From Phormidium tenue FACHB-886 (GTDB lineage Bacteria; Cyanobacteriota; Cyanobacteriia; Elainellales; Elainellaceae), in the NCBI RefSeq assembly GCF_014764505.1, contig NZ_JACXWX010000007.1, positions 186,001 to 250,000 of the forward strand: DNA of 64,000 nucleotides, read 5' to 3'. The position numbers and the translations under genes are program-made. The notes under the pieces are model-generated. The model did no database searches. It saw only the letters and a program-made list of their open reading frames with translations, and was not told the DNA's origin. Every line of letters begins with the position of its first letter. The first letter of the stretch is position 1. Below are positions 25,889-30,424 of this stretch, piece by piece.

Positions 25889-26881
25889 GTGATCCGCTCC
25901 GCCACCTTAGCTATCCAGCCTCTGGCTTCTCCGATCGCAGATAATAGCCGCCTCCGGCTGTTTTCTGGCTCTGCTAATGTGCCTCTCTCGCATGAAGTCG
26001 CGCGCTACCTTGGGATGGACTTGGGTCCAATGGTTCGTAAGCGCTTCGCTGATGGTGAGATTTACATCCAAATTCAAGAATCGATTCGAGGCTGCGATGT
26101 TTACCTGATGCAGCCGACCTGCTGCCCGGTTAACGACCACCTGATGGAACTGCTGATCATGATCGATGCCTGTCGTCGGGCGTCAGCACGTCAGATTACA
26201 GCCGTTCTGCCCTACTACGGCTATGCCAGAGCCGATCGCAAGACGGCAGGTCGAGAATCAATCACCGCCAAACTGGTTGCCAATCTGATCACGCAGGCAG
26301 GGGCCAATCGCATTCTAGCGATGGATTTGCACTCGGCTCAGATTCAGGGCTATTTTGATATTCCGTTTGATCACGTTTACGGCTCTCCAGTCATCCTGGA
26401 CTATCTTCTCAGCAAGCAGTTCGAAGATATTGTCGTCGTTTCACCTGATGTAGGTGGTGTAGCACGCGCTAGAGCCTTTGCCAAAAAGCTGAACGATGCG
26501 CCCTTGGCAATCATTGACAAGCGGCGGCAGGCGCACAATGTAGCTGAGGTGATGAACGTGATTGGTGATGTAGCAGGCAAAACAGCCGTGCTGGTGGATG
26601 ACATGATCGACACCGCCGGAACGATCTGCGAAGGAGCCCGACTCCTGCGTAAGGAGGGCGCTCGTCAGGTATACGCCTGCGCGACTCATGCAGTCTTTTC
26701 ACCTCCTGCTGTAGAGCGCTTGTCTAGCGGCATCTTTGAGGAAGTAATTGTCACGAACACCTTGCCTATCTCCGAAGACAAACGCTTTAAGCAGTTGACG
26801 ATTCTCTCAGTGGCCAATTTGCTAGGTGAAACGATCTGGCGAATTCACGAGGATAGCTCGGTCAGCAGCATGTTTCGCTAG
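25889..26881 (+). CDS. prs: Ribose-phosphate pyrophosphokinase
   Basis: 330 aa. Makes PRPP from ribose 5-phosphate and ATP for nucleotide, His and Trp synthesis. Seen: FADGEIYIQIQESIRG, DLHSAQIQGYFDIPFDH, VVSPDVGGVARARAFAKKL, and the PRPP loop VLVDDMIDTAGT near 235-246. GTG start at 25889 with GAGGA about 6 nt upstream. It is a class I enzyme of usual size. The pseudogene at 26907-27379 follows it on the opposite strand. Confidence 0.97.
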   Translation: MIRSATLAIQPLASPIADNSRLRLFSGSANVPLSHEVARYLGMDLGPMVRKRFADGEIYIQIQESIRGCDVYLMQPTCCPVNDHLMELLIMIDACRRASARQITAVLPYYGYARADRKTAGRESITAKLVANLITQAGANRILAMDLHSAQIQGYFDIPFDHVYGSPVILDYLLSKQFEDIVVVSPDVGGVARARAFAKKLNDAPLAIIDKRRQAHNVAEVMNVIGDVAGKTAVLVDDMIDTAGTICEGARLLRKEGARQVYACATHAVFSPPAVERLSSGIFEEVIVTNTLPISEDKRFKQLTILSVANLLGETIWRIHEDSSVSSMFR

Positions 26882-26906
26882 CTGACGTTCGATCTTCAAC
26901 TGCCAC

Positions 26907-27379
26907 CTAGTATGGAGCTGTGTCAGCCTGGAGTTCTGGCGAAATGTAATAGCCTTCATGCCTGGGCTGTACCTCAAAGTGCTCAATTAGCAGCTCTCGC
27001 AGCCCGGGTTTCAGGTCTTCGCAAGAAGTTCTCTGTTGGATGTGCTTGCCCAGCTTCGTATCTTTGCCACTTTGCCCCCCATCCATAAATCGGCTGCCTC
27101 AACTACCTGACCGTTCTTGCGACCTTTCGGCTCCATATGCCGATGTCTGCAACCCGCCGCTGTCCGCAATTGGGGCAGCCCGTCCATCGATAGAACAACC
27201 CCAAAACCCGTAGCCGAAAATCTGGATTGGCTTTATCAGGCGCTTCCTAACCGATCTTGGCAAGCAATTTCAGCTCTTGCTTCAGCACCAGCCCATCTTT
27301 TTCGGCTCTGATCTTCTAAATCTTCAGCAGTACTTTCAGAAGTGCCTGCAGCGCTGATAGTTTTGGAGGTTCCTTTCAT
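26907..27379 (-). pseudogene. nirA: Relic of ferredoxin-nitrite reductase with large internal deletion
   Basis: On the minus strand two NirA pieces are fused. At 27315-27187 the N-terminal region reads KIRAEKDGLVLKQELKLLAK-IG-stop-EAPDK, ending LGLFYR; the stop is TAG where NirA has Trp in IGWEA. At about 27186 it jumps directly to the C-terminal siroheme/Fe-S motif TGCPN-CGQRRVADIG, which lacks the Ser codon of the normal TGCPNSCGQ. Then come RKNGQVVEAADLWMGG and KLGKHIQQRTSCEDLKP, joined by two one-base frameshifts, with a stop at 26907. About 340 central codons are missing relative to a roughly 510-aa NirA. It cannot make a functional enzyme. Confidence 0.85.
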
Positions 27380-27980
27380 AAATTTAACGCTGGCGCCTAC
27401 TGTGCAAGCAGCATTGTGAGGCGCACTGGCTAATGCAATCGCACTTCATGATTTATTGCTGCTTAAGTAGAGGATTGAGGCTCTTCTGTAGGCTACTTAC
27501 TTGAAAGTGCGCATTCAGTAAAGGTTGTTACAAAGCACAGATTAAAGAAGTAGATCCATCTTAAGAGGTCTCTCTTTTTAGGTACCTAAAAAATAGCCTG
27601 CAATCTTTAAAGGAGCATGCAAAGCATTGCAGGCATAGCTTAAACCACCCCTAGATTACTTAAGCTAGAGCATTCAAGATTTAAGGAAGCGTTCAACCCG
27701 ATTTGGATTCAATAGTTGTTCAACGAAGAGAATTTAGGGAACGAATGCAAAGCCTTCAGTATTTTTTCAAGATCCTCCAAGTAGGTGGAGTAATTATATA
27801 AAAGCTTTGTGGACATTGATGAGTGAATAAACCATCTAGAAACTGAGTGTTATTAGGCTACGCATGCTGAATTATGCCTTTCCATTGAGTGGGTAGCTAA
27901 ACCGTTGAAAAGACGCAGAAATCCTTCAGAAAGCTGTGCTTCACAGAATTTTCAGATGCAATGCTGCTCATTCTCCTGCC
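27380..27980. other. 600-bp A/T-rich gap, no gene recognised
   Basis: No convincing frame, RNA or transposon end was seen. One hairpin, GCCTGCAAT...ATTGCAGGC at about 27596-27635, stands out. Together with the adjacent nirA relic, the region looks like decaying DNA. Confidence 0.5.
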
Positions 27981-28445
27981 TTACAAGTCTTCAATAATCG
28001 TCCGACGGTTGATTAGCTCTCGTCGAAGAGATTGTTGTGGTGAAGCCTTTAAGCCATCTGCTTTCAGCCTTTCCGCATTCTGTTGCCTTCTCTTAGCAGG
28101 ATTGACGCTGGGCTGCCTCCAGTTTTCATCCAATGACGACAATTCTGTACGTTTCGCTACTTCTTTAAGCTTCTCTAGTTCTCTAACCTTCTCTAACTCC
28201 AAAAACTTATTGCTAAACCATGTATAGTCGCAAGGTTTCAGGTTCGATTCAACTCGATTGCCTCGTTGAATCAGAATGATTCCTCTGCCGTCTAACGTGC
28301 TGATAAGCAGGCTGTCTTGCTCTTTTCCTTCAACTAATCGATAAGGAGAAAAAGTGATAGAACGTTTAGTGTATTGACACAGGATTTGCTTTGCAACAGA
28401 TATTACATTTTGTGGTGTAGAGATAGTATTTTGTGTTGAATACAT
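27981..28445 (-). CDS. Hypothetical protein, orphan
   Basis: 154 aa with no family recognised. The N-terminal half (about 1-85) includes ISTLDGRGIILIQRGNRVESNL, which looks like a small beta-rich domain. A helical stretch (LEKVRELEKLKEVAKRTEL, about 87-106) follows, and then a basic, Arg/Gln-rich tail. A weak AAGGCGG precedes the ATG. Base composition is slightly lower in GC than the neighbours and it sits in a decayed zone, so it may be recently acquired or a remnant; coding status is likely but not certain. Confidence 0.5.
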   Translation of the reverse strand: MYSTQNTISTPQNVISVAKQILCQYTKRSITFSPYRLVEGKEQDSLLISTLDGRGIILIQRGNRVESNLKPCDYTWFSNKFLELEKVRELEKLKEVAKRTELSSLDENWRQPSVNPAKRRQQNAERLKADGLKASPQQSLRRELINRRTIIEDL

Positions 28446-28765
28446 ACCGCCTTAGACCTTAGCTTTCCTTATAAGGAAACACTGATCCTTTTCTGTTGGC
28501 ACATACTTTAGATAGAGATGTAACAGTTTTCTACCCGTCGAGACACATTGGCTTATTACAAAAGTAAACTGCTATTTGTTTGTCAGCCGCACTATGCTTT
28601 GTTGAAGAATAAATGTGGCGAATTCTAACAGCAAAATATTGTCATCGCAAATAATTTTCCCAGCTTGCTCTGCTGATGGTTTAGCGTCTGTTGCCCGCTG
28701 GAAAAGGAGGAAAACGTAGAGTATTTAATTCTTTTCTTACGCTGCTTACCTGGCATCGGCGCCAC
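28446..28765. other. Intergenic gap, nothing recognised
   Basis: 320 bp between the orphan gene and murJ, both on the minus strand. It is A/T-rich, with no coding frame, RNA or clear terminator seen, apart from AAAGGAGGAAAA near 28701 without a following gene. Confidence 0.45.
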
Positions 28766-30424
28766 CTACGATCGCCGCAGTTTTTGCCGAACTCGATCGC
28801 TAAACTGAGCAACTTCCGGAATTCGTAGTTGGCTAACCAACAGCGCGAACACCCCCAGTCCCACTAATCCAGCCAGGCAAATTTGCGCCAAATGCAGCCA
28901 AAAGCCTGCCCCTTGCCACACTTGCGCAACTCCTTGCAGCACTCCCCATGCCGCCAGTCCTGATACTGCGCTGACGATGGTAATTCCAACGGTGGGCATG
29001 CTCCATTCTCGCAACGGCAACCCATTCAGCTTGCGATCGAGAAACCATAGCATCATTAGCATGGATATCAAATTGACCCCCACCGTTGCCAGCACCAAAC
29101 CAGGCGCACCGAATGGCTTCACCAGCAGAAAATCCAGCAGGGCATTTAGGAGAATATTGAAAATGCTGATCCGAAACGGCGTATCGCCATCCCCCAGCGC
29201 ATAAAAGACCCGGACTAGAACATCCCGCCCGAGATACACAAACATCCCAACGGCATAAGCAATCAACACCGATGCCGTCAGATAAGAGTCTTGCGCCGTA
29301 AACGCATAGCGCTCATATACAACTCGTGTGATCGGCAGCGCCAGCACAATCATCAACACGCTAAGGGGCAGCATGGCGATCGCGGTCATCATCAGCCCTT
29401 GGCGAATGCGTCCCTTCAGCTCTGGCCAGTGTTCTGGGTCTGCCAGCTTAGAAAATACCGGCAGCAAGGGAACCAAAATCACGTTAGACAATATTCCCAG
29501 CGGCGTTTGCACCAGCAAGCCCGCGTAGCCCATCGCCGAAACTGCAGCGGCAGCGTTGGGAATAAACGACGCAAAAAATAAATCTGTCCAGACGTTAATC
29601 TGCATCATTCCCGACGAAAACGTCGCCGGACCCATAATCTTAATCACTTCCTGCACGTCAGGCTGCCGGAAGTTAAACCGTAGCCGAAAGCCACCCAAGC
29701 CCGATCGCCATTGCGCAGGCAATTGCATTAACCATTGCAGCACCGCGCCTGCCAGCGTTGTGGCAGCCAGCACCACACCGCCCAACAGCGCATACTGAGG
29801 CGATAAAATATCACTCCCCAAATAAACAGCCAAACCACCCAGCCCCACCAGCACCGCAACGCTAGAAAACAGTGGGCTAATCGACGGCAACCAATATTGA
29901 TCGGCAGCATTCAGCGCTCCAAAGCCAATACCGATCAGCCCTGCCAGTACCGCCATTGGAGCCATAATCCGGAACTGCAGAACTGCGAGTTCCCTAGTTT
30001 GCTGCAGCGTCTCCAAAGTTGCTGGATCAGCGTTGGCTGCCGTCAAAAATAGTCCCGGGGCAACGAGCCGCATCAGCGGTTCAGCAAACACAATCAGGGC
30101 GATCGTCACCAGCAGTAGAATCCCCACCACCAGCGTAGTAATCGTTTCCATAATCGGGGCAATTTCTTCCCGCTTTCGCTTCGCCAGCACACTCACCATA
30201 GCGCTGTGGAAGGGACCATTGATACCGCCCAACAAAATCAGCAGAAAGCCTGGAATTACATAGGCAAAGTTGAATGCCCCAAACACCGGACCTGCACCAA
30301 ATGCAGCCGCGATCGCCTGCTGCCGAAACAGCCCAAACACTTTGCTCAGCAGGGTTGCAACTGCCACAATTCCAGCAATGCTGGCAAGAGAACGGGAAGG
30401 TTTTGATTCTGGCTGGGATGACAC
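28766..30424 (-). CDS. murJ: Lipid II flippase MurJ (MviN)
   Basis: 552 aa with about 14 hydrophobic segments. The N-terminal pattern VATLLSKVFGLFRQQAIAAAFG is diagnostic of MurJ, and NAFLVKPFGAPGLVLATVGVN-like sequence appears near the C-terminus. MurJ flips lipid-linked peptidoglycan precursors across the plasma membrane and belongs to the MOP superfamily. It is complete. The next gene upstream on the same strand is the NUDIX hydrolase, 79 bp away. Confidence 0.96.
   Translation of the reverse strand: MSSQPESKPSRSLASIAGIVAVATLLSKVFGLFRQQAIAAAFGAGPVFGAFNFAYVIPGFLLILLGGINGPFHSAMVSVLAKRKREEIAPIMETITTLVVGILLLVTIALIVFAEPLMRLVAPGLFLTAANADPATLETLQQTRELAVLQFRIMAPMAVLAGLIGIGFGALNAADQYWLPSISPLFSSVAVLVGLGGLAVYLGSDILSPQYALLGGVVLAATTLAGAVLQWLMQLPAQWRSGLGGFRLRFNFRQPDVQEVIKIMGPATFSSGMMQINVWTDLFFASFIPNAAAAVSAMGYAGLLVQTPLGILSNVILVPLLPVFSKLADPEHWPELKGRIRQGLMMTAIAMLPLSVLMIVLALPITRVVYERYAFTAQDSYLTASVLIAYAVGMFVYLGRDVLVRVFYALGDGDTPFRISIFNILLNALLDFLLVKPFGAPGLVLATVGVNLISMLMMLWFLDRKLNGLPLREWSMPTVGITIVSAVSGLAAWGVLQGVAQVWQGAGFWLHLAQICLAGLVGLGVFALLVSQLRIPEVAQFSDRVRQKLRRS

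Follow-up and report, generated by a model that had tools for sequence, protein, structure and literature searches.

The DNA analysed (the window) is a stretch of 64,000 nucleotides from Phormidium tenue FACHB-886. A gene on the plus strand, taken to be prs by recognition and from the preliminary description, faces a convergent relic on the minus strand which is confirmed, as judged by its sequence, as a decayed ferredoxin-nitrite reductase gene (nirA). Both ends of NirA are present in the relic, in the right order and on the right strand. The N-terminal part reads KIRAEKDGLVLKQELKLLAKIG, a stop codon and EAPDKANPDFRLRVLGLFYR, with WTGCPN-CGQRRVADIG directly after, and the C-terminal part reads KGRKNGQVVEAADLWMGGK and GKDTKLG...QPRHEGYYISPELQADTAPY with a final stop codon, in two other frames. 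The junction of KIRAEKDGL...FYR with WTGCPN-CGQ...ADIG given in the preliminary description is thus present. The coordinates of all parts are listed in Table 1.

Table 1. Parts of the nirA relic and its neighbouring gene, in positions of the window.
Feature	Position	Strand	Remarks
nirA2 pseudogene, entire relic	26907..27379	-	likely former start codon 27379-27377 to terminal TAG 26909-26907
N-terminal block KIRAEKDGL...GLFYR	27187..27315	-	43 codons
Premature TAG replacing the conserved NirA Trp (IGWEA)	27247..27249	-	
Join of the in-frame deletion, 375-382 codons gone	27186..27187	-	between FYR and WTG
C-terminal Fe-S block WTGCPN-CGQRRVADIG	27139..27186	-	one codon absent at 27169/27168
C-terminal block KGRKNGQVVEAADLWMGGK	27068..27136	-	second frame, 3' of the frameshift placed between 27138 and 27123
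C-terminal block GKDTKLG...QPRH	26907..27068	-	third frame; nirA2-type tail EGYYISPEL and terminal TAG
prs	25889..26881	+	convergent to the relic; stop 25 bases from the relic end

The similarity to NirA claimed for the locus is clear in protein searches. By tblastn the two NirA proteins resident in the genome, encoded on contigs C112 and C79, match pieces of the relic with E values of 1e-7 (C112) and 8e-14 (C79, summed value). The best single stretch scores 70.5 bits with a NirA of Leptolyngbya FACHB-36, a member of a separate NirA branch for which the name nirA2 is coined here, and 45.8 bits with the C112 NirA, against 23.1 and 23.9 bits, respectively, for the best of 500 dinucleotide shuffles of the relic. 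In the rest of the 64-kb window the two resident proteins give at most 23.9 bits. The numbers of identical residues per aligned codons between the relic and nirA2 are 99/147 for FACHB-36, 96/150 for genome G142, 95/148 for Myxacorys (G068), 93/151 for G189 and 88/143 for G055. When the relic was searched as DNA, 34 of 78 relatives (the own genome excluded) matched at E ≤ 0.01; the matches mostly cover relic positions 194-405, which is the C-terminal part, and many of the places coincide with the nirA places of the relatives.

Lesions were mapped by frameshift-aware alignment against the two resident NirA proteins and five nirA2 proteins. The internal deletion comprises 375 codons compared with the C112 NirA, 382 with the C79 NirA and 375-376 with the five nirA2 proteins; the large in-frame loss described earlier is therefore real, but larger than the approximately 340 codons then given. 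The TAG at 27249-27247 stands, as described, at a conserved NirA tryptophan, and one codon, serine in intact NirA, is gone between TGCPN and CGQ, the cysteine pair of the second motif, also as described. Both frameshifts that had been noticed downstream are found, the first somewhere in 27138-27123 and the second near 27070, but an additional one lies in the N-terminal stretch, at a position that varies with the reference within 27313-27340. Because this stretch is variable, the small gaps in it also differ with the reference. The motifs SCTGxxFC and GCPNSC, which we take to carry the four cysteine ligands of the Fe-S/siroheme centre, are both affected, the former lying inside the deleted stretch and the latter lacking one codon. 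The catalytic centre is lost through this deletion and the broken spacing of GCPNSC, as the preliminary description had stated. Where a working gene would have one open frame of about 510 amino acids or more, the relic has a stop codon and frameshifts; the three frames of its coding strand run without a stop for at most 73, 47 and 63 codons, and the conserved pieces are spread over three different frames. The relic cannot be an enzyme.

In the genome, which comprises 8.93 Mb in 255 contigs (completeness 99.88, contamination 3.54), the NIR_SIR family is matched nine times, within five open frames. Two frames exceed the NCBIfam cut-off for NirA (NF007125), one of 512 amino acids on C112 and one of 526 amino acids on C79. 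On C112 the open nirA is followed by ORFs reading as NrtA, NrtB, NrtC, NrtD and NarB, where the nrt names are our assignment by recognition; on C79 narB comes directly after the open nirA. The narB genes were assigned by homology to narB of G142 and by their molybdopterin-oxidoreductase domains. Since nirA and narB are open on both contigs, the two reductase steps of the pathway are encoded twice. These two open nirA, the nrt-like genes and the two open narB, which a genome search of the kind proposed in the preliminary description brought out, contradict its suggestion that the relic is a trace of decaying nitrate assimilation. The NirA of the second open pair (L011:8971-12785, G000:C79) has a long branch (0.50-0.61) and an unstable placement. 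The contig of the relic also bears, at a distance of about 190 kb, a large NIR_SIR frame with 855 codons open (L004:13-2151, G000:C223:22056-25472), NirB-like by recognition. Neither the relic nor its flank was found a second time in searches of the own genome.

The phylogenetic trees place the relic within nirA2. In a tree of 46 rows it groups with the second nirA of G068 and G055 (100/98), and the C112 nirA groups with G012 and G025. A tree of 117 rows, including some duplicates, places it with FACHB-36, G189, G142 and Myxacorys californica (G068) with an SH-aLRT of 100; the FACHB-36 nirA2 protein is identical to that of G321. In a tree of 43 rows, the bootstrap of which had not settled, support was 99/99 for the five-row group with the relic and 100/99 for the nine nirA2 rows. 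The C79 nirA is sister to nirA2 in the 46- and 117-row trees and falls outside it in the 43-row tree. In these trees only 23-24% of the columns are filled for the relic, and its branch is long. Its start, MKGTSKTISA, resembles the MTGISKTASA of G142 and G189, other nirA2 starts differing more, and its tail, EGYYISPEL, resembles the YFVPPEL of several nirA2, whereas both resident NirA end differently. By its grouping as well as by its start and tail the relic belongs to the separate branch nirA2; it does not stem from duplication of the operon nirA of this genome.

Differences at the three codon positions were counted over 117 codons, and the mean at positions 1 and 2 was divided by that at position 3. 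This ratio is 0.31-0.36 between the relic and six nirA2 genes and 0.43 between the relic and the C112 and C79 genes, compared with 0.17-0.28 among 15 pairs of intact nirA2 and 0.28-0.38 for intact pairs in which C112 or C79 is a member. Changes at second positions number 13-18 per 117 codons on the relic branch against 3-8 on four intact nirA2 branches. The codon positions thus carry a modest signal of relaxed selection. The raised second-position changes indicate that selection was relaxed on part of the relic branch; most changes are at third positions, and selection would therefore have acted on the gene for a large part of its separate evolution. The relic thus shows what is expected of a pseudogene, several disabling lesions together with relaxed selection on the codons that are left.

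The distribution of nirA2 was followed by searching 388 genomes of the class (own included) with the Myxacorys gene and scoring up to three candidates per genome. A match at E ≤ 1e-60 was obtained in 349 of the genomes, and at least five (G068, G189, G321, G142 and G055) exceed 900 bits, the next score among the matches listed being 852. A scan of genome contigs with two short peptide patterns gave 48 loci, six of which are nirA2 in the tree: Chlorogloea CCALA 695, Chroococcus CMT-3BRIN-NPC107, an Aliterella bin, a bin titled Tatlockia sp., FACHB-36 and Myxacorys. The gene of the Tatlockia-titled bin (L120, JACCVJ010000307.1) is nearly identical to that of Chlorogloea and probably sits on a mis-binned cyanobacterial contig.

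A narB gene lies within about 1 kb of nirA2 in five of nine distinct loci examined, directly beside it in FACHB-36, G142 and G189, immediately ahead of it in G055 and about 1 kb ahead in Chlorogloea. For Chroococcus, Aliterella and the Tatlockia-titled bin the contig start truncates the upstream side. In Myxacorys the gene stands alone, 3' of modA- and modBC-like ORFs, with no narB in the stretch seen. In G142 ABC-transporter and solute-binding ORFs (modBC and modA type) follow narB, the mod names at these loci being our assignment by recognition, and in G189 an MFS transporter follows narB. In a narB tree of 33 rows the nirA2-linked narB of FACHB-36, G142, G189 and Chlorogloea cluster (90/92); the narB of G055 and both resident narB fall outside this cluster, that of C79 without a resolved place. 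A frameshift divides the G189 narB (L194:5244-7440, G189:C26) into two ORFs that overlap. The ORFs beside the G055 nirA2 (L112:109-2081, G055:C31) contain a repeated unit, SIPQRDLLFLR or FQSLKGICCFCD depending on the frame, the units being separated by differing stretches as in a CRISPR array. Many other cyanobacterial NirA frames are 640-720 amino acids long with a common extra C-terminus ...ILTCIAHPVGxVxIDA (L122, L123, L125, L126, L128, L176, L190 and others), presumably a ferredoxin-like extension. A limited full-text search of the literature turned up no mention of the nirA2 branch. It is possible, if less than even odds, that nirA2 is a rare accessory module of nitrate reduction which often comes with a narB lineage of its own, in isolated instances also with transport genes of the molybdate or MFS type, and whose gains and losses extend over distant families of cyanobacteria; the present lineage would then once have held three nirA side by side, and the relic would mark the module.

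The relatives, which included no other strain of the same genus, gave 36 prs loci from 29 genomes, 29 of the loci (L045-L073) with flanks of up to 1.5 kb, some cut by contig ends, and seven longer ones (L104-L110) from genomes already among the 29. When the locus was compared in this way, as had been proposed earlier, no trace of NirA at E ≤ 0.05 was found at any of the 36 loci, and the sequence after prs differs among the seven longer ones, which rules out the relic as an old conserved neighbour of prs. In the relatives prs and nirA either sit on separate contigs or lie well apart; the closest pair seen on a single contig, in G067, is separated by about 23 kb. The contig with prs looks native, because a small Cys-rich ORF upstream of prs is also found upstream in six of the seven longer loci.

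Beside the relic, no clear remnants of nirA2 partners were found in 26882-28765 by comparison with ORFs of at least 80 amino acids from the fetched loci; outside the relic this region matched only an ORF of the window itself, of 154 amino acids, and, weakly, an L109 ORF (E 0.003, at 28433-28290 of the window). No trace of narB was found in 26882-28765 either. Proximity to narB is not a strict feature of nirA2, since it is seen in five of the nine loci, three being cut and Myxacorys being without it. The 154-amino-acid ORF (27981-28445, minus strand) adjoins the relic, has no Pfam match at E ≤ 0.01 and is a single copy in the genome.

Taking up the observed homology, lesions, branch and other open copies, the relic is very probably the pseudogene of an accessory nirA2, a third nirA beside prs which was redundant, lost its function, suffered the internal deletion and is eroding. 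The nirA2 gene would have come to sit beside prs in the Phormidium tenue FACHB-886 lineage and would once have worked there. It would have been redundant because the operon that combines nirA, nrt-like genes and narB stayed, as did the second nirA-narB pair, and this redundancy may have allowed its loss. It would then have lost its function, afterwards its middle by the in-frame deletion, and would now be eroding through point changes and frameshifts, presumably in that order. That the relic arose as a copy of either intact nirA of this genome and then decayed is unlikely. With the relic held with the C79 nirA, an AU test gave p 0.115 and a log-likelihood 24.6 lower, which is disfavoured but above rejection, and the sister position of the C79 gene in two trees also speaks for such an origin. 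Held with the C112 nirA the log-likelihood is 45.6 lower and this grouping is rejected (p 0.00045); over 117 codons the relic differs at 52 residues from C79 and 51 from C112 compared with 31-39 for six nirA2 proteins, and its start and tail are nirA2-like. A recent duplicate of the operon nirA is ruled out by the trees, the AU test and the tail. The lost duplicate of the preliminary description thus survives broadly, as a redundant extra copy, but one of a separate branch.

An intact or less damaged gene shortened by an assembly error would fit a deletion that is in frame and leaves both gene ends in place, but is very improbable, as an error at the join would not explain the stop codon, the lost codon and at least three frameshifts in the retained parts, and second-position changes are raised. 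That the remnant now serves in a new role, as a small protein or an RNA, is scarcely credible: the relic persists and its deletion is in frame, but its stop-free runs are short, its conserved pieces lie in three frames and no Rfam family reaches the gathering score in 26700-28800. No present function of the relic is seen in what its sequence offers.

The pseudogene of nirA2 would represent ordinary gene loss, since the genome keeps two intact nitrite-reductase genes and nitrate-reductase genes, and by its features the relic is a genuine but ordinary pseudogene. It matters little alone, as a clear case of the loss of a redundant metabolic gene, and should neither be annotated as nirA nor be taken as a loss of nitrate use. 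Of mild interest is the rarity of the nirA2 branch in the class, and that its adjacent narB genes cluster in the tree except that of G055.

Compared with known systems, the relic is a descendant of NirA (NCBIfam NF007125; plant relatives of solved structure 3b0h and 2akj), with both ends aligning, but lacks the internal codons and has a broken frame. Intact nirA2 proteins score 834-857 bits with NF007125, for which the cut-off is 594, and match the plant nitrite reductases. The relic is like the nirA2 of FACHB-36, Myxacorys californica, Chlorogloea CCALA 695, Chroococcus CMT-3BRIN-NPC107, the Aliterella bin, G055, G142 and G189 in tree place, start and tail, whereas those genes are open and not beside prs in the loci examined, and their neighbours have left no trace at the relic. 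With ordinary bacterial pseudogenes of redundant metabolic genes it shares the stop codon, the frameshifts, the large deletion, the raised second-position changes and the other copies in the genome, and it differs from them only in the identity of the gene and its place.
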